Shown here: in pieces, positions 9,466 to 54,860 of the stretch
How the letters are laid out: the number at the start of each line of letters is the position of its first letter
How positions within the stretch are numbered: position 1 is the stretch's first letter
From: Desulfobacteraceae bacterium
Lineage (GTDB): Bacteria; Desulfobacterota; Desulfobacteria; Desulfobacterales; Desulfosarcinaceae
Length of the DNA: 64,000 bases
Direction of reading: 5' to 3'
Assembly (NCBI GenBank): GCA_024230435.1
Contig: JAAERL010001167.1
Span: 1 to 64,000, forward strand
Program-made: the position numbers and the translations under genes
The notes under the pieces: generated by a model
Seen by the model: the letters and a program-made list of their open reading frames with translations, nothing else
The model's database searches: none
Told to the model about the DNA's origin: nothing

Positions 9466-10845
9466 TTAAACTCCATTTTTTAGACGGCCTACGACTTGTT
9501 CGGCCACCCGGTAGACATTACCAGCCCCCAACGTCAGCACGATATCATCTTTTTTTGCTGTCGCCATTATCGTTTCAACGGCTTGATTCAAGTCCCGCAT
9601 GTACCGGACATCCTTATGCCCGTGGGCTTGCAGGCTTTCACAGAGCCTGATGCTGTCCACCCCCTCAATGGGTTGTTCACTGGCCGCATAAATCGGCATC
9701 ACCAGCAAGATGTCCGAAAGATAAAAACTACGTGCAAAATCATCAAAAAGCGCTTGAGTTCTAGAATAGCGGTGGGGCTGGAATATCACCACCTTGCGCC
9801 GGCTAGGCCAGGCTTGTTCCATTGCTGTCAAGGTGGCTTTGACTTCCGTGGGATGATGCCCGTAATCATCCACTACCGTTATTCCGGCGATCTGACCTTT
9901 GATTTCCAAACGGCGCTGAACGCCCTGCGCTTGTTCAAGGGCCGTTTTGATCTCCTTGAATTTGATACCCAGCTCCAACCCCACGGCGACAGCCGCCATG
10001 GCATTGTATACGTTATGTATGCCAGGCAAGTTGAGGGTAATTTCACCCAACGGCTTTGCCTGGTAGATAATGTTGAACCGGCTGGACATCCCGCTGCTTG
10101 TAACATTGCGGGCCTGCAAGTCAGCCTGGGGGCTTTTACCATAAGTGATGAACCGTCTGCTAATGTGAGGAATCAAATCCTGAACGAATTCATCGTCTAA
10201 ACACAATACGGCCAGTCCATAAAAAGGTATCCTGTCAATAAACGTCAGAAATGCCTGCTTGATATCTTCCAAGTCTTTGTAAAAGTCAAGGTGTTCGCGA
10301 TCTATATTTGTCACAACGGCAATGGCCGGTGAATATCTCAGAAACGATCCATCACTTTCATCAGCCTCGGCCACAATATAGTCACCTTTTCCCAAAACGG
10401 CATTTGAGCCGATGCCCAAAAGTTTTCCGCCAATGACAACCGTCGGGTCCAAACCGCCCTGAGCAAGAACAGAGGCGACCAATGACGTGGTAGAGGTTTT
10501 TCCATGTGCGCCTGAAATCGCCACACTGTATTTGAGCCGCATCAGCTCCGCAAGCATTTCAGCCCTTGGGATAACAGGCAGTGAGGCTTGTATGGCTGCG
10601 CGGACTTCGGAATTACTTTCGTCTATGGCCGAAGAAACCACCACGACATCGGCTCCTTCTATCTGCCCTGCATGATGCCCTTCGTAGATATCGCCTCCCA
10701 GCTTAGCAAGGCGTTTTGTAATTTCAGATTTGCGTAAATCAGAACCGGAGACTTTATACCCCAGATTGAGCAACAGTTCGGCAATCCCGCTCATTCCAAT
10801 GCCGCCGACTCCTACAAAATGAATATGATATTTTTTTTGGTACAT
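9466..10845 (-). CDS. murC: UDP-N-acetylmuramate--L-alanine ligase
   Basis: 459 residues. MurC adds L-Ala to UDP-MurNAc in the cytoplasm using ATP. It has the N-terminal UDP-binding GVGGIGMSGIAELL, the ATP loop GAHGKTSTTSL, the DESDGSF segment and the C-terminal HPTEVKATL and FQPHRYSRT motifs. Length is normal. The ATG at 10845 follows a GGAG ribosome site. It lies between murG and ftsQ on the minus strand. Confidence 0.98.
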   Translation of the reverse strand: MYQKKYHIHFVGVGGIGMSGIAELLLNLGYKVSGSDLRKSEITKRLAKLGGDIYEGHHAGQIEGADVVVVSSAIDESNSEVRAAIQASLPVIPRAEMLAELMRLKYSVAISGAHGKTSTTSLVASVLAQGGLDPTVVIGGKLLGIGSNAVLGKGDYIVAEADESDGSFLRYSPAIAVVTNIDREHLDFYKDLEDIKQAFLTFIDRIPFYGLAVLCLDDEFVQDLIPHISRRFITYGKSPQADLQARNVTSSGMSSRFNIIYQAKPLGEITLNLPGIHNVYNAMAAVAVGLELGIKFKEIKTALEQAQGVQRRLEIKGQIAGITVVDDYGHHPTEVKATLTAMEQAWPSRRKVVIFQPHRYSRTQALFDDFARSFYLSDILLVMPIYAASEQPIEGVDSIRLCESLQAHGHKDVRYMRDLNQAVETIMATAKKDDIVLTLGAGNVYRVAEQVVGRLKNGV

Positions 10846-23614: not shown

Positions 23615-23776
23615 TAAGGCGATTGGCGGCAAAAAAAATATAGCATCTTAACAGATACCTTATTGCGTAGGATTTTTTTTCGTCTTCAAGGCGCGCCAAA
23701 GTTTGCATACTTAACGTATTCGCACCTTTGGCATAACACACAAGACGGGAAAAAAGACATGCAAGACGGTATATTG
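23615..23776 (+). repeat. Dispersed repeat family A, copy 1
   Basis: It starts TAAGGCGATTGGCGGCAAAA, continues with ATAGCATCTTA and TTCAAGGCGCGCCAAAG, and ends CACAAGACGGGAAAAAAGAC then ATGCAAGACGGTATATT. The inner part can fold because CCAAAG pairs with CTTTGG. It directly follows a family B end (23576-23614), so two repeat types are nested. Together they occupy the gap before the IMP cyclohydrolase gene. Confidence 0.8.
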
Positions 23777-23905
23777 TTTACTAACTTCAATCCAGCAAGT
23801 ATTGCCTATTGTTGCATCATGCTAATGCCTGCAACTATCAACAGGAAAAAGGAGGCGGTGTTTGCACTGTGGCATAAATGCCGGAGTCTTCACACCGAAT
23901 TTTAG

Positions 23906-24583
23906 ATGACAATCAATGTAGTTCAAAAGATAGACGACATAGTACCGGTTCGCCATGTTTTAATCAGTGTTTCCGATAAAACCGGACTGGATGTTCTGGT
24001 TCCCCAATTAGTCAAAATCAATCCCAAGGTGCGTATTTTTTCCACTGGAGGTACGTATAGCCGGATCAAAGACATTTTGGGCGCCGCGGCCGATAATTGC
24101 CTTGTCCAGGTTTCAGATTATACAGGTCAGCCGGAAACTCAGGGCGGATTAGTAAAAACCCTTGATTTCAAAATCTATTTGGGTTTATTGACGGAAAAAT
24201 ATAACGATGCTCATCAAGATGATTTAAAACGCACCAATGCCGTTGCCATCGATATGGTAGCCGTAAACCTGTATCCTTTCCGGGAAACTGTTGCCAAACC
24301 GGACATCAGCCCGGAAAATGCCCGCGGCAACATTGATATTGGCGGACCGTGCATGATACGCGCGTCAGCTAAAAATTATATCCGGGTGGCCAGTGTTGTT
24401 GACCCTGCAGATTACGATCGCATAATACGCGAATTAGCTCTAAACCAGGGCTGCACGAGTTTGAAACTGCGTTTCGATTTGGCCCGTAAAGCGTTTGACC
24501 ATACGGCAGAATATGACCGCGCCATTGCTGATTACCTGGCCAAACAGACCGATGCGCAAATCAGCGGATGCTATACTTCTTAG
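23906..24583 (+). CDS. IMP cyclohydrolase (PurH N-terminal domain as a separate protein)
   Basis: 225 residues. It closes FAICAR to IMP, the last step of purine synthesis. The MGS-like fold is recognisable: VLISVSDKTGLDVLV, IFSTGGTYSRI, VSDYTGQPETQGGLVKTL and NIDIGGPCMIRASAKN. In most bacteria this is the N-terminal half of PurH; here it ends in its own stop, which lies in a family D repeat (TTAGAGCTTGTTTGGGAA). The transformylase is the next gene. The TTAG-derived end suggests that the last residues (GCYTS) may be repeat-derived. Confidence 0.93.
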   Translation: MTINVVQKIDDIVPVRHVLISVSDKTGLDVLVPQLVKINPKVRIFSTGGTYSRIKDILGAAADNCLVQVSDYTGQPETQGGLVKTLDFKIYLGLLTEKYNDAHQDDLKRTNAVAIDMVAVNLYPFRETVAKPDISPENARGNIDIGGPCMIRASAKNYIRVASVVDPADYDRIIRELALNQGCTSLKLRFDLARKAFDHTAEYDRAIADYLAKQTDAQISGCYTS

Positions 24584-24612
24584 AGCTTGTTTGGGAAATA
24601 AGCTCTTAACCA
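24583..24612 (+). repeat. Short family D hairpin between the two PurH-domain genes
   Basis: GAGCTT at 24584-24589 pairs with AAGCTC around GTTTGGGAAAT, with further weak pairing outside. The start of the repeat supplies the TAG stop of the IMP cyclohydrolase gene. It could also act as a processing or termination hairpin inside the purine transcript. Confidence 0.5.
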
Positions 24613-24644
24613 AAGCCCATTCAGAAAAACCAAGGAGACCTTCG

Positions 24645-25895
24645 ATGGCTGAAGACTTAAAAAAAATGTACCGCACAATTGTTGAAGATAATTTTCCGTC
24701 CAAAATGGAAATCAGTTTTGTTGAAGATAAGCAGCGCCAAACCCTTTTTTACGAAAAAGTTTTATGGACTGTTGACGGTGTAGAAAAAGGATTGCGGTAC
24801 GGAGAAAATCCCGGTCAGCCAGCCGCCCTGTACAAGCTGATCAACGGCAACCTTATTTTGGGTGAAACACGCACAATTTTACCAGGTAATTATCTGGTAT
24901 CGGATATTGAATTGCTTCAATCCGGCAAACATCCCGGCAAAACGAACCTGACAGATGCGGACAATGCACTTAATATTATACGTTATTTCACGGACAAAGC
25001 CACAGCGGTCATTGTAAAACATAACAATCCCTGCGGAGCCGCCCAGGCCGATACGCTGGAACAAGCATACATCAAAGCCAATCTGGCCGACCGGCTCGCC
25101 GCATTTGGGGGATGCATCGGCCTAAACCACCCGGTTGATCTTGCAACCGCTGAGGCCATATCTCATCAGTATGCCGAAGTGGTGGTGGCCCCGGACTTTG
25201 AAGAAGGGGTTATGGACATTTTCAGCCGTAAACCCAATCTGAGGGTTATTCAAATCAACAACATCAGCAGACTGCAGCAGTTTGTGGGACAGCGTTGCGT
25301 TGAATTCAAAAGCCTAATTGACGGCGGCATCGTAGCGCAATGGTCTTTTGTTCCAAACACCCTTACAAAGCAAGATCTCAAACCGGCCCAATGCGAATAC
25401 AAAGGCCGGACCTGCCAGGTCAATCGTCAACCCACGGAACATGAATACCAGGATTTGTTATTCGGCTGGTTTATCGAATCGGGCGTTACCTCCAATTCGG
25501 TTCTTTATGTAAAAGATTTGGTTACCATTGGTATCGGCGCCGGGGAGCAAGATCGTGTGGGTGTCGCCCAAATCGCCAGAGATAAAGCCTATCGCAAACT
25601 TACCGACCGGTATTGTTTCGAGCAGTTTGGCGTCGCTTTCAACGAGCTCAAAGATGAAGATAAACGCAAAGACCTTGAATCGCGGGTTGTCCGGGAAAAA
25701 GGAGGCTTAACCGGCTCTTCTATGGTCAGTGACGCTTTTTTTCCTTTTAGGGACGGCATAGACGTGGGCTTGCGAGAGGGCGTTTGCGCTGTCATTCAAC
25801 CGGGTGGATCAAATAATGACTATCAATCAATTCAAGCCTGCAACGAATACAAAGCAACCATGGTTTACACCGGGCAGCGCAGTTTTAAACATTAG
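24645..25895 (+). CDS. purH: AICAR transformylase (PurH C-terminal domain as a separate protein)
   Basis: 416 residues from the ATG at 24645, which follows AAGGAGA; the frame is open further upstream but has no good start. It transfers formyl from 10-formyl-THF to AICAR. Diagnostic motifs are RYGENPGQPAALY, AVIVKHNNPCGAA, AFGGCIGLN, GEQDRVGVAQIA and SDAFFPFRDGID. The IMP cyclohydrolase is encoded separately just upstream, so the bifunctional PurH is split. A residue segment of about 40 before the conserved domain is extra. Confidence 0.94.
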   Translation: MAEDLKKMYRTIVEDNFPSKMEISFVEDKQRQTLFYEKVLWTVDGVEKGLRYGENPGQPAALYKLINGNLILGETRTILPGNYLVSDIELLQSGKHPGKTNLTDADNALNIIRYFTDKATAVIVKHNNPCGAAQADTLEQAYIKANLADRLAAFGGCIGLNHPVDLATAEAISHQYAEVVVAPDFEEGVMDIFSRKPNLRVIQINNISRLQQFVGQRCVEFKSLIDGGIVAQWSFVPNTLTKQDLKPAQCEYKGRTCQVNRQPTEHEYQDLLFGWFIESGVTSNSVLYVKDLVTIGIGAGEQDRVGVAQIARDKAYRKLTDRYCFEQFGVAFNELKDEDKRKDLESRVVREKGGLTGSSMVSDAFFPFRDGIDVGLREGVCAVIQPGGSNNDYQSIQACNEYKATMVYTGQRSFKH

Positions 25896-27835: not shown

Positions 27836-29452
27836 ATGACTTTAAAGCCAACTCATGGAAAAATTTTAGACAAAAAAAACAAAAGTTTATCAGACATCGC
27901 CGAATACAAAAATACTAAAGAGGCTTTGGACCAGGCACATCAAAGCCTTCTTACTGTCATGAACAATATCGATGCCTGCATTTACGTCACAGACCTGCAA
28001 ACCCAGGAAATATTGTTCATGAATCGCCCTGCAAAAGAAAAGTTTGGTGGAGACTACACCGGCCAGGTCTGCTGGCGGGCATTTTACGAACTTACGCGCC
28101 CGTGTGATGATTGTAATAAAGACCAGCTAATCGATCAAACCGGTCAGCCTACAGGTTTGCATGTCCGGGAAAAATTAAATGCTGACACGGGCTGCTGGCA
28201 TATTAATCATGATCGCGCTGTCAAATGGATTGACGGCCGCTATGCGCGTGTCCAAATTGCCACAGATATAACTAAAGTTAAGGAGTTTGAAAAAGAACGT
28301 ATAGACGCGGAGGCCCAGATGCGGCAGGCCCAAAAATTAGAGGCAATGCAAACCCTGGCTGCAGGAATCGCAAAAGATTTTAATGGTATGTTATCGTCAA
28401 TTCTGAACTATGCCGGCAGCGCCCTGGATGAAGCACAGAACAACCGCACATCGGTTCCTTTTTTGCGCGAGATTATAAAAGCAGGTCACCAGGCCAAAGA
28501 GCTGGCGCATCAAATACTCACTTACAGCAGACGGACGGAAAACATATTCAAACCTATTCAAATAAAACCTATCATCAATGAAGCCTTAAAATCGCTAAAA
28601 ACCTCTTTACCGTCAACTATCAAAATTGAAAGCAATTTAATCAGCGAGGCCATTGTAGAAGCCGATTCAACTCAAATACACCAAGTCATAATGAATCTTT
28701 TCTCCAATGCATGTCACGCCATGCGCGAGCAAGGCGGTGTGCTGACCGTAGGGCTCACCAAAGAAGTCCTGTCAAACAATTTTACACGTCATTATCCAGG
28801 TATGTTACCGGGAAACTATCTCCGGCTTGAGGTCAGCGACACAGGGCACGGCATTTGCCCGTCCATCGTCGACAAACTATTCGACCCTTATTTTACAACA
28901 AAAACAGATAAAAAAGGCTCTGGAATTGGCTTGTCAGTTGTTCAAGCAATTATTCAAAACTGTGGCGGCGCTATTTCAGTAGGCAGCCGGGCCGGTGAAT
29001 TGACGACATTTAAAATCTATTTACCCATTTTTCTTCAGACAGCAGTCTATTCACCCGCAGATGAAAGTATTGCAGCCTCAGGCAATGAACGAATCTTATT
29101 TGTTGATGATGAACCGGACTTAGCCGAGCTTGGCGGGCGCCTGCTAAAAAAAATGGGCTATCAAGCCACCATTTGCACAAGCAGCGCCGACGCATTGGCC
29201 TTGTTTAAAAAAACACCGAATGAATTCGATCTGCTTGTTACCGATATGACCATGCCCACTATGACGGGAGATATCCTGTCAAAAAAAATACGCGCCATAC
29301 GGCCCGATATCCCAATTGTAATCTGTACGAGTTACAGTGAAAAGGTCACCTGGGAAATGATTGAACAATTGGCAATCCGTTCGGTTATCATGAAGCCGCT
29401 GGCGCTCAATGAAATGGCGCTTTGCATTCGGCAAGCGTTAGATGACAAATGA
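27836..29452 (+). CDS. PAS hybrid histidine-kinase-like protein with Lys at the phospho-acceptor site
   Basis: 538 residues, no membrane helix. PAS domain (about 38-150) with a Cys-containing loop (CWRAFYELTRPCDDC), DHp (about 165-235), ATPase domain (about 275-400) with NLFSNACHAM, DTGHGI and GSGIGLSVV boxes, and a C-terminal receiver (about 420-536) with DDE, TDMTMP phospho-acceptor Asp and KPL lysine. The H-box reads AAGIAKDFNG: the His expected in GGIAHDFNN is Lys180. Normal autophosphorylation at His is therefore not expected; it may act as a pseudokinase, a phosphatase, or a receiver partner of other kinases. Convergent with the ferredoxin gene. Confidence 0.9.
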   Translation: MTLKPTHGKILDKKNKSLSDIAEYKNTKEALDQAHQSLLTVMNNIDACIYVTDLQTQEILFMNRPAKEKFGGDYTGQVCWRAFYELTRPCDDCNKDQLIDQTGQPTGLHVREKLNADTGCWHINHDRAVKWIDGRYARVQIATDITKVKEFEKERIDAEAQMRQAQKLEAMQTLAAGIAKDFNGMLSSILNYAGSALDEAQNNRTSVPFLREIIKAGHQAKELAHQILTYSRRTENIFKPIQIKPIINEALKSLKTSLPSTIKIESNLISEAIVEADSTQIHQVIMNLFSNACHAMREQGGVLTVGLTKEVLSNNFTRHYPGMLPGNYLRLEVSDTGHGICPSIVDKLFDPYFTTKTDKKGSGIGLSVVQAIIQNCGGAISVGSRAGELTTFKIYLPIFLQTAVYSPADESIAASGNERILFVDDEPDLAELGGRLLKKMGYQATICTSSADALALFKKTPNEFDLLVTDMTMPTMTGDILSKKIRAIRPDIPIVICTSYSEKVTWEMIEQLAIRSVIMKPLALNEMALCIRQALDDK

Positions 29453-29496: not shown

Positions 29497-29787
29497 CTAA
29501 CAACAGCCCGAGTCTCCGCAAGATGCATTTTCCTTACCCTTAATCCATGACTGAATAATATAGCTTGCGCAACCTACTCCGGGGGTTACGGACAGGGCCC
29601 CTGTGGAGCAATTATTTGTACAAGCGCCACACTCCATGCAGCCGTCAAGATCCGCAATATGTGCTTTTTTACTGTTCATGGCCAATACGCCATGAGGGCA
29701 AACCTGGGTACAAACACTGCAGCCAACGCAAAGCTCTGAATTCAAGGCCAAGGTTACAACGTTATTGATATAGCGAAGTTCTTTCAT
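29497..29787 (-). CDS. hgcB: HgcB-like 2[4Fe-4S] ferredoxin (mercury-methylation type), hgcA not adjacent
   Basis: 96 residues. Two cluster motifs: C20-x2-C23-x2-C26-x3-C30-P and C50-MECGAC-C60, followed by C73 in GVGCASYIIQSW and a terminal Cys pair C95-C96 with C90 nearby. The CMECGAC motif, the lone Cys at 73 and the vicinal Cys tail are the hallmarks of HgcB, the electron donor to the corrinoid protein HgcA in mercury methylation. HgcA is normally encoded just upstream, but here 366 bases without an intact gene are followed by a CheY-like gene. It could be HgcB with hgcA elsewhere, or a look-alike ferredoxin. The ATG has an AAGGAA ribosome site. Confidence 0.65.
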   Translation of the reverse strand: MKELRYINNVVTLALNSELCVGCSVCTQVCPHGVLAMNSKKAHIADLDGCMECGACTNNCSTGALSVTPGVGCASYIIQSWIKGKENASCGDSGCC

Positions 29788-29812
29788 CTTTATTTATTTC
29801 CTTATGATTTGC

Positions 29813-30054
29813 TTATGTCAGATTATAAGGCAAAACTTGGTTCATGGCAATCCGGCGGGTATCCAATACCACGCTTGCGGTGGGATAAGCTGTGTTGTCA
29901 CAGGTATACCGGCTGTCCAGGATCGCAACATTGTGTCATGCGGCCCGAGTTGGCGCAGGCGCCAGTCCAATCCCCGATGTTTTCCTGTTGTGTGCATATA
30001 CCAAGGCCTTGAACCTGAAAATATCAGGTGCAGCAAAGTCAACAAGACCTTATT
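29813..30054 (-). pseudogene. Possible decayed coding remnant upstream of the ferredoxin
   Basis: One minus-strand frame reads protein-like sequence (GLVDFAAPDIFRFKALVYAH, then a TGA at 29936-29938, then HNVAILDSRYTCDN and RRIAMNQVLPYNLT) up to a TAA at 29813-29815. A neighbouring frame provides a plausible upstream continuation (ALFVLDNKV). This pattern of a broken frame with low-complexity-free sequence suggests a gene remnant. I do not recognise the family, and it does not resemble HgcA. Confidence 0.3.
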
Positions 30055-30153: not shown

Positions 30154-30534
30154 TCAATCTTTGGGTTTTAATTTCAAAATACCCTTGGCGCGTTCTAACA
30201 ATTGGTCACCCTTAAAGGGTTTGACCACATAATCGCGAACTCCCATTTTAACAATTTTCATTACATTTTCCTTGCCGGACTCAGCAGTGAGCATGATGAC
30301 GGGAATTCCTTTTAATTCTTTCTCAGATTTCATTTTTTCCAGCATTTCAATACCTGTCATAACCGGCATGGTAATATCAAGAACGATTAGGTCCGGTTTT
30401 TCTTTGTTCGCCAAAGCCAAACCTTCAACACCATTTTCCGCTTCAAATAGCTGACAATTATACGGTGAAAAAGCTTTTTTTACAATCATTCGAATGGTTT
30501 TACTATCATCTACGGTTAAAACTTTATAAGCCAT
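30154..30534 (-). CDS. CheY-like single-domain response regulator
   Basis: 126 residues, one receiver domain only. The acidic pair is in TVDDSKTIR, the phospho-acceptor Asp is in LIVLDITMPVMTG, the switch Thr is in MLTAESG and the lysine is in VVKPFKG. With no output domain it must act by protein contact, for example at a flagellar motor, a kinase or as a phosphate relay step. It is divergent from a hybrid kinase and Hpt pair 660 bases away that could phosphorylate it (inference). Confidence 0.92.
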   Translation of the reverse strand: MAYKVLTVDDSKTIRMIVKKAFSPYNCQLFEAENGVEGLALANKEKPDLIVLDITMPVMTGIEMLEKMKSEKELKGIPVIMLTAESGKENVMKIVKMGVRDYVVKPFKGDQLLERAKGILKLKPKD

Positions 30535-31196: not shown

Positions 31197-33278
31197 ATGT
31201 CAGACAGGACCACTATTTTAGAATTGGTCAAACGGGTGCAGACTCTTGAAATTGAGCAGGAAAAATCAAGACTCACTCAAAAAGATTTAAAAAAAGGCGA
31301 AGAGCGTTTCCGGCTTATCTCCGAAACGATTCATTTCGGTGTTTTTGAAATCAATAATTCCGGCAGCTGTTTATATACCAATACCCGCTACCAACAAATC
31401 TTTCAAATCGATCTTATAAAAAGCCTGACAACGCTGTGGATTGATTATGTAGATGAACAGGACAAAGAGCATATACTGGAGAAGTGGCAAGACTCAGTTG
31501 AAAATATGGTAACCTTTTCTGAAGATTTGCGCATTGTAACAACAAAGGGAAACAGGCTTTGGGTACACGTTCACAGTTCACCTGTTTTTTCGGATGAAGG
31601 TGCGCGCTATACCGGAACCATTGAAGACATTACCGAACGAAAAAAAAATGAGCATGAGCTCAAAGTCGCCATGAAAGCCGCTGAGACCGCCAATCTGGCA
31701 AAAAGCCAGTTCCTGGCGAACATGAGCCATGAAATCCGCACGCCAATGAACGGTGTTATTGGTTTTACAGACCTTTTGCTGGAAACCGGACAAAGCGAGC
31801 TTCAGGTAGATTACACCAAAACCATCAAACGCAGCGGCGAAGCTTTGCTTTCCCTGATCAACGATATTCTAGACTTTTCAAAGATTGAGTCCGGCGAACT
31901 GGAATTTGAAGTCATTGAATTCGATCCAGAATTGCTGGCCTATGATGTTTGTGAATTGATCCGCCCTAAAATCATAGATAAACCTATTGAATTGTTATGC
32001 AACATCGGTGAAGAAGTACCGACGCTGGTCAAAGGCGATCCTTTACGATTCAGGCAGGCCTTGACCAATTTGATGGGCAATGCTCCAAAATTCACACAAA
32101 AAGGGGAAATCAGCCTGTCCATGGATTTAGAGAAACAAAACGATGAAAAGCTACTGATTCATGTCCGGGTGTCGGATACCGGTATTGGCATTTCCCCGGA
32201 AAAAAGAAAAACCATTTTCGAACCCTTTCAGCAAGCCGATGGTTCCACCACTCGTAAATTCGGAGGAACCGGCCTGGGCCTATCCATCTGCAAACAACTC
32301 GCCACGTTGATGGGAGGTGACACCTGGGTGGAAAGCCAAGAGGCAAAAGGCAGTATTTTTCATTTGACTGCCTGGTTTTTTAAAGCCGCTAATCATAGTC
32401 CTCAACGTTTTGCGCCGGCCAATTTAACTGGAAAACGAACCTTGCTTGCTGAAGACCACGCCGGAAATCGCAAAATTCTGGAAAAAATGCTAATCAATGC
32501 AAAAATGGAAGTTTTCAGTCTCAACGGCGGGATGAATGTCATCGAAGCCCTTCAACACGCGGATGATAAGGGCAATCCATTTGATCTTTGCTTGTTGGAT
32601 ATGGACATGCCTGACATTGACAGCCATACGATGGCCCGACAAATAAGATCTTCAGATACCGGCATTAAATCAATCCAACTCATTGCCTTGTCAGCTACTC
32701 TGGAAAGAGACGCTCCAAAATGTGAGCAGTCCGGATTCAATGGATTTTTGGCCAAACCTGTGCGCCGTGAACGCCTTATTCAAATGATCAGCCGCCTATT
32801 GGCTGAAAAAACGGCAGGCGTTACAAGCAAAAATAAAGCAACCAAGCATCCCGGCAAAATGCACACCCAGTATAGTGTTCGCGAAGCCATGAAACACTCG
32901 GTGCGCATTCTTTTAGCTGAGGATAACCCCGTTAACCAAAAACTGGCAATTATGATGCTGGGTAAAGCAGGTTATAAGGTTGATGTGGCGGCCACTGGTA
33001 AAGAGGCCGTTCTTAAGTACTCATCTGCGCCTAAAGATTACGATCTTGTTTTCATGGATGTGCAAATGCCGGAAATGGACGGAACAGAGGCTACGAAATT
33101 GATACGCGAAATGGGATATATGGACGTTCCAATCGTAGCCATGACAGCCCACGCCATGAAAGGGGACCGGGAAAAATGTATTAACTCCGGAATGAACGAT
33201 TACATTACAAAACCTATTAAACGAGAAACTGTTTTCGAAATGATTGATAAATTTATCTTAAGAAAGGGTGCGTCATGA
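31197..33278 (+). CDS. Cytoplasmic hybrid sensor histidine kinase (PAS-HisKA-HATPase-REC-REC)
   Basis: 693 residues with no membrane helix. A short coiled coil (1-35) is followed by a PAS/PAC domain (about 36-150), DHp with MSHEIRTPMNG (H178), an ATPase domain with NLMGNAPKFT, DTGIGIS and GGTGLGLSI, and two receivers. The first receiver has D468 in LLDMDMPD but an AEDHAGN front, and the second has a canonical AEDNPVNQ, D621 in FMDVQMPEMDG and KPI. The architecture is that of BarA/ArcB-like phosphorelay kinases. The stop overlaps the Hpt gene start (ATGA), so the two are coupled. Confidence 0.93.
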   Translation: MSDRTTILELVKRVQTLEIEQEKSRLTQKDLKKGEERFRLISETIHFGVFEINNSGSCLYTNTRYQQIFQIDLIKSLTTLWIDYVDEQDKEHILEKWQDSVENMVTFSEDLRIVTTKGNRLWVHVHSSPVFSDEGARYTGTIEDITERKKNEHELKVAMKAAETANLAKSQFLANMSHEIRTPMNGVIGFTDLLLETGQSELQVDYTKTIKRSGEALLSLINDILDFSKIESGELEFEVIEFDPELLAYDVCELIRPKIIDKPIELLCNIGEEVPTLVKGDPLRFRQALTNLMGNAPKFTQKGEISLSMDLEKQNDEKLLIHVRVSDTGIGISPEKRKTIFEPFQQADGSTTRKFGGTGLGLSICKQLATLMGGDTWVESQEAKGSIFHLTAWFFKAANHSPQRFAPANLTGKRTLLAEDHAGNRKILEKMLINAKMEVFSLNGGMNVIEALQHADDKGNPFDLCLLDMDMPDIDSHTMARQIRSSDTGIKSIQLIALSATLERDAPKCEQSGFNGFLAKPVRRERLIQMISRLLAEKTAGVTSKNKATKHPGKMHTQYSVREAMKHSVRILLAEDNPVNQKLAIMMLGKAGYKVDVAATGKEAVLKYSSAPKDYDLVFMDVQMPEMDGTEATKLIREMGYMDVPIVAMTAHAMKGDREKCINSGMNDYITKPIKRETVFEMIDKFILRKGAS

Positions 33279-36535: not shown

Positions 36536-36693
36536 TTAGGCGATTGGCGGAAAAGAATATACCAGATTGAGCTTCGATTTTTTTTCGTATTCAAGGCGCG
36601 CCAAAGTTTTACTGATCAGTTTGCATACTTTACGTATTCGCACCTTTGGCATAACGCACAAGACGGGAAAAAAGACATACGAGATGGTATTCT
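36536..36693 (+). repeat. Dispersed repeat family A, copy 2
   Basis: It starts TTAGGCGATTGGCGGAAAAG, then TTCAAGGCGCGCCAAAG, CCTTTGGCATAACGCACAAG and ends GACGGGAAAAAAGAC plus ATACGAGATGGTAT. It has about 17 extra bases in the hairpin loop compared with copy 1. It lies between nadA and yebC. Confidence 0.8.
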
Positions 36694-36716
36694 TTAACTG
36701 CAAATCAACTTAACTA

Positions 36717-54610: not shown

Positions 54611-54847
54611 TTAGGCGATTGGCGGAAAAAAACATAACATCTTAGGATCCTGGAAGGCGCCAATATACCGTTATTGCGCCGGACTTGGATTCGTTTTCAA
54701 GGCGCGTCAATGGGTGCATACTCATTGTCTGTGCACATTGACGCAACATAACGAAAACGAATTTAAGGACAAGCATAAGTGGTGCATTCGCACCTTTGTG
54801 CATAACACACAAAACGGAAAAAAAGACATGCAAGATGGTATATTATT
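54611..54847 (+). repeat. Dispersed repeat family A, copy 4 (long form)
   Basis: It starts TTAGGCGATTGGCGGAAAAA, has AACATCTTAGG, then GGATTCGTTTTCAAGGCGCG and the hairpin GCGTCAATG...CATTGACGC (54704-54744), and ends CACAAAACGGAAAAAAAGAC then ATGCAAGATGGTATATT. It is about 75 bases longer than copy 1 because of an extra segment around the hairpin. Confidence 0.8.
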
Positions 54848-54860
54848 TGACACAAATCGC

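Follow-up and report, generated by a model that had tools for sequence, protein, structure and literature searches.

An HgcB gene beside a broken sfsA

The window, meaning the whole 64,000-nucleotide stretch of DNA analysed here, carries on its minus strand an open reading frame whose bounds are exactly 29497-29787 (contig C1166). The gene and its surroundings display the following features.

27836-29452, plus strand: histidine kinase/response regulator gene, convergent with hgcB and its ancestral right neighbour (48-50% identical relative in G006/L080)
29497-29787, minus strand: hgcB, 96 aa (profile score and cysteine positions, see below)
29798-29803, minus strand: AAGGAA, probable ribosome-binding site of hgcB, read from the sequence
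29822-29850, minus strand: promoter-like site TTGCCA-17-TATAAT before hgcB, matching the consensus at 11 of 12 positions
29874-29966, minus strand: sfsA remnant covering SfsA residues 43-73, and interrupted by a TGA (51-61% identity to the SfsA of three relatives)
30154-30534, minus strand: cheY-like response regulator gene, which ancestrally lay to the left of sfsA (relatives have orthologs of 82-91% identity, with sfsA coming after them in G004 and G005)
31197-33278, plus strand: hybrid histidine kinase gene, a marker of the cheY block (in relatives, orthologs of 59-65% identity also lie next to cheY)

A promoter-like site of this quality arises in 120 nt of simulated sequence with P of about 0.002. 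No Rfam RNA was found in the gap between hgcB and cheY. Elsewhere in the window, a purH-like gene (AICAR transformylase/IMP cyclohydrolase; 23906-25895, plus strand) is split into two overlapping frames, 23906-24583 and 24495-25895, reflecting either a frameshift or a sequencing error.

The 96-residue product scores 119.8 bits (E 3.2e-35) against NF040864, the curated HgcB equivalog model of NCBIfam, whose cut-off is 99 bits. In a 60-genome scan, this model gives true HgcBs 115-129 bits; the matches next in line, all under the cut-off, are a truncated HgcB (74 bits) and other ferredoxins (57 bits or less). The model separates HgcBs from other ferredoxins cleanly in these 60 genomes. Against NF043039, the model of HgcAB-like fusion proteins, the window protein reaches 53.5 bits (cut-off 285). 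Judged by its profile score, it is an authentic HgcB.

The cysteines agree with this assignment. There are 12, at positions 20, 23, 26, 30, 50, 53, 56, 60, 73, 90, 95 and 96. Two CX2CX2CX3C motifs, formed by Cys 20/23/26/30 and Cys 50/53/56/60, include the CMECGAC segment; the lone Cys73 is kept, and the C-terminal part holds Cys90, Cys95 and Cys96, the last two being a Cys-Cys pair. The HgcB layout claimed by the first-pass annotation is thus confirmed in each of its elements. Cys73 is strictly conserved and important in HgcB (PMC7305189), and both the cluster ligands and Cys73 of the window protein are numbered identically to those of the HgcAB model in that study. One residue is unusual: a Pro normally comes after each cluster motif, and position 61, following the second, is Ser in the window protein and Pro in 97% of 80 relatives. 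This position is not a cluster ligand, and about 3% of relatives also deviate from Pro there.

HgcA is encoded on another contig of the same genome

In the canonical arrangement, hgcA lies directly upstream of hgcB on the same strand. Here, the sfsA remnant and cheY occupy the upstream side. We found no tblastn match to hgcA within the 64,000-nt window, and an hgcA remnant inside the decayed stretch upstream of hgcB was excluded on the same ground. In the window's own assembly, a draft of 1238 contigs and 6.13 Mb, a search returned a protein on contig C797 that was first found as a CdhD-type domain. It is a full-length HgcA of 402 aa that carries GINVWCAAGKGTF and has the cap helix GINVWCAAGK; with the HgcA equivalog model, whose cut-off is 275 bits, it reaches 433.4 bits. 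The HgcA of C797 and the HgcB of C1166 are each the sole protein in the genome above their own cut-off. Near-invariant columns are largely kept: 1 of 28 differs in HgcB and 3 of 96 in HgcA.

The first-pass annotation had described hgcB as an orphan without hgcA. This holds locally, as hgcA is absent from the window, and fails for the genome, where HgcA is encoded on C797. Among the options it offered, loss of hgcA is contradicted by the full-length protein. A location elsewhere proved correct: the search it proposed, for an HgcA with N(V/I)WCA(A/G)GK, yields NVWCAAGK on C797 in a protein of curated-level score.

Both genes lie mid-contig, on different contigs that are unjoined in the draft, and are not adjacent. 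On C797, hgcA is preceded at a distance of 22 nt by an rlpA-like gene and followed by a sigma-54-dependent regulator gene; no second hgcB was found near hgcA on this contig. In several relatives, an ArsR-like regulator is located directly upstream of hgcA (L079 8425-8757, L080 8497-8805, L136 8474-8740). No such regulator stands beside hgcA in the window's genome, where the rlpA-like gene takes its place. Ahead of the corrinoid domain, the HgcAs of L077 (9399-10607) and L079-L082 carry extra N-terminal sequence that includes a conserved CCGPPAGPPS-like segment and additional cysteines.

A dispersed repeat, about 165 bp long, occurs on both C797 and the window contig at 94-97% identity and is present on other contigs too, which argues that the two contigs come from one organism. 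Their base and tetranucleotide make-up is similar. Across the genome, copies of this intergenic repeat are 80-97% identical and occur on many contigs; both breakpoints discussed below are free of it. The copies in the two regions are as follows.

Window: 36538-36700, 23674-23780, 54786-54851
L077: 5769-5908, 12935-13098

On contig C235 of the same draft (G000; locus L078, 7579-8763, plus strand), we notice an HgcAB-like fusion protein that scores 341 bits with NF043039 (cut-off 285) and has NVWCAAGM in place of NVWCAAGK. Its gene sits in an apparent nonribosomal-peptide cluster with a PLP enzyme, an ornithine-cyclodeaminase-like protein, a condensation protein, two adenylation proteins, a radical SAM protein, an ATP-grasp protein and an MFS transporter. 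With a GC content of 36%, compared with 44-46%, and the dispersed repeat absent from its 18 kb, this contig could be of foreign origin or wrongly binned.

Rarity of the split and relatedness of the two proteins

To see how rare such a separation is, we surveyed 291 genomes of the order and close relatives from the first scan, 114 of which have both hgcA and hgcB. The two genes lie on one contig and one strand in all but 3 of the 114, with a median gap of 46 bp between profile matches. Two of the exceptions, G116 and G048, were ruled out as true splits, both genes lying at contig ends in each. The window's genome is the only real hgcA/hgcB split among the 114. Meanwhile, hgcA lies just upstream in 79 of 80 named HgcB loci. 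The exception is L142, from a Desulfotignum draft genome, with a lone hgcB (10001-10285, plus strand) and no HgcA found anywhere in the genome. The downstream flank of L142 matches that of L144 at 92%, and hgcA is missing from the upstream side, owing to either a recent hgcA deletion or an incomplete genome.

The nearest relatives of HgcA are also the nearest of HgcB: L079-L082 and L118, all Desulfatitalea-type loci, with moderate SH-aLRT support for the placement (90 for HgcA, 85 for HgcB). L080-L082 are from genomes of the window's own family. This agreement is as expected of a pair inherited together. In the HgcB tree, the window protein falls among Desulfatitalea-type HgcBs; ordinary ferredoxins were discarded as an outgroup, as they did not align usefully and gave very long branches, and the tree therefore speaks to placement within HgcB rather than to the border with other ferredoxins. 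Given the profile score and the nearest relatives in common with its own HgcA, the suggestion of a repurposed HgcB relative gives way to a true HgcB.

Two junctions with exchanged halves

The decayed stretch that had been noted between hgcB and the CheY gene is real, and it is a broken sfsA. Nothing else in the 6.13-Mb genome matches SfsA (the remnant does so with E 5.9e-7), and no intact sfsA was found there. Its score is 106, against 30 ± 4 in shuffled sequences. It lies between cheY and hgcB on the expected strand, with shifted frames, a stop and only 31 recognisable residues. Decayed sfsA sequence probably extends to both sides of 29874-29966, within 29840-30020.

Gene order in relatives reveals what sfsA was once part of. 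The order cheY - sfsA - sigma-54 regulator is complete only in G004; cheY - sfsA occurs in G005, and sfsA - sigma-54 regulator in G006, G009 and G012. In the window's genome, the halves are swapped: cheY and the broken sfsA are joined to hgcB in the window, and hgcA is joined to the sigma-54 regulator on C797. In L080 (genome G006, an uncultured Desulfatitalea), the gene after hgcB also encodes a histidine kinase and is convergent with it; its product is 48-50% identical to that of the window, so the window retains the ancestral right flank of hgcB. L080 also has an RlpA-like gene 4 kb upstream of hgcA, a weak hint of the ancestral left flank of hgcA.

A repeat common to both junctions was ruled out, since they have no word of at least 10 bases in common. 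The idea that cheY and hgcAB once stood in a common neighbourhood was dropped as well: the two are 18 kb apart in G014 only, and the arrangement is not conserved.

A probable two-locus HgcAB, with a proposed origin by rearrangement

On the basis of these results, we consider it highly likely that the window carries an authentic hgcB whose partner hgcA lies elsewhere in the same genome, that the pair was parted by one rearrangement, and that the proteins still act as HgcAB. A single reciprocal exchange would account for both junctions: the chromosome would have broken at two points, one separating hgcA from hgcB and the other within sfsA, and the ends would have been joined crosswise. An inversion would be its simplest form, and the gene directions fit if the two loci had opposite orientation. 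sfsA, located at the second break, is destroyed. After the exchange, hgcB would be transcribed from its own promoter, and hgcA is probably cotranscribed with the rlpA-like gene 22 nt upstream.

HgcA and HgcB were each insoluble in E. coli without the other (PMC11588087). In the window's organism, the two would come together in the membrane as HgcAB. For the linked pair, a mechanism of mercury methylation has been described (PMC7305189, PMC11588087), in which the HgcB clusters reduce the HgcA corrinoid and S-adenosylmethionine is the methyl donor (PMC11588087). The two [4Fe-4S] clusters of the window's HgcB would likewise reduce the corrinoid of HgcA. Hg(II) and methylmercury would be handled by Cys73 and the C-terminal Cys pair, in line with what has been proposed for linked HgcA and HgcB. 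The intactness of both proteins and their agreement in nearest relatives make a functional mercury methyltransferase, built from two loci, the most likely state.

A further reading is that mercury methylation proceeds with hgcA and hgcB in separate transcription units, HgcB being under its own control and perhaps having a second partner as well, for instance the HgcAB-like fusion protein of this draft; we regard it as unlikely. If true, it would show that the complex can be built without joint transcription of the two genes. That hgcB is a leftover, no longer working with HgcA and either heading for loss or serving another redox partner, seems quite improbable. Ser61 in place of Pro and the solitary hgcB of the Desulfotignum draft would fit such a course, but all functional cysteines were kept while the neighbouring sfsA decayed, a promoter-like site and a ribosome-binding site precede the gene, and HgcA is intact too, with no other HgcB in the genome.

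The fragmentation of the draft raises the question of whether mis-joined contigs or a foreign hgcA contig conceal a normal hgcAB pair. This is very improbable: both junctions would have to be wrong reciprocally, yet they lack any common word long enough to mislead an assembler; the stop and shifted frames in the sfsA half are not expected from a mis-join, nor is an intact sfsA present; and the repeat and composition link C797 to the window contig. Separate gain of hgcA or hgcB by horizontal transfer, such that the two never formed one pair in the lineage, is scarcely credible: hgc genes are believed to pass from one lineage to another (PMC7573106), but HgcA and HgcB have their closest relatives at the same loci, three of them from the window's own family, and the right flank of hgcB is common to the window and L080/G006.

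Comparison with known HgcAB systems

The rearranged pair provides a natural test of why hgcA and hgcB almost never part. Both proteins stayed intact after separation, whereas sfsA, broken by the same event, decayed. In one large survey, a confident hgcB count required hgcA on the same contig and no more than five ORFs away (PMC7438021); the broad PCR for hgcAB likewise runs across the two genes (PMC5038027, PMC7573106). Because such surveys and PCR demand proximity of the two genes, organisms with a split pair are discounted or missed. We found no account of this split or of a traced hgcA/hgcB breakpoint in the mainly open-access literature searched.

Compared with the canonical hgcAB of Pseudodesulfovibrio mercurii ND132 and of L079-L082, the window's genome has the same two protein families, functional cysteines and cap helix. 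Its pair, however, is non-adjacent, does not form one transcription unit, and has no ArsR-like regulator beside hgcA. The HgcAB-like fusions of the Pyrococcus type (NF043039), one of which is encoded in the same draft, contain the same types of corrinoid and ferredoxin domain, whereas the window's HgcB is free-standing.

The closest parallels are Desulfovibrio inopinatus, whose hgcA and hgcB are separated by many genes, and D. africanus Walvis Bay, where a single gene lies between them (PMC5038027). Like the window's genome, both have the two genes in non-adjacent positions. They belong to a different order of bacteria. In the window's genome, by contrast, the pair lies on different contigs, and the break is traced to a cross-over with the cheY-sfsA-sigma-54 locus that destroyed sfsA. 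The window's genome is thus a further case of the rare, known separation of hgcA and hgcB, one whose origin is unusually readable.
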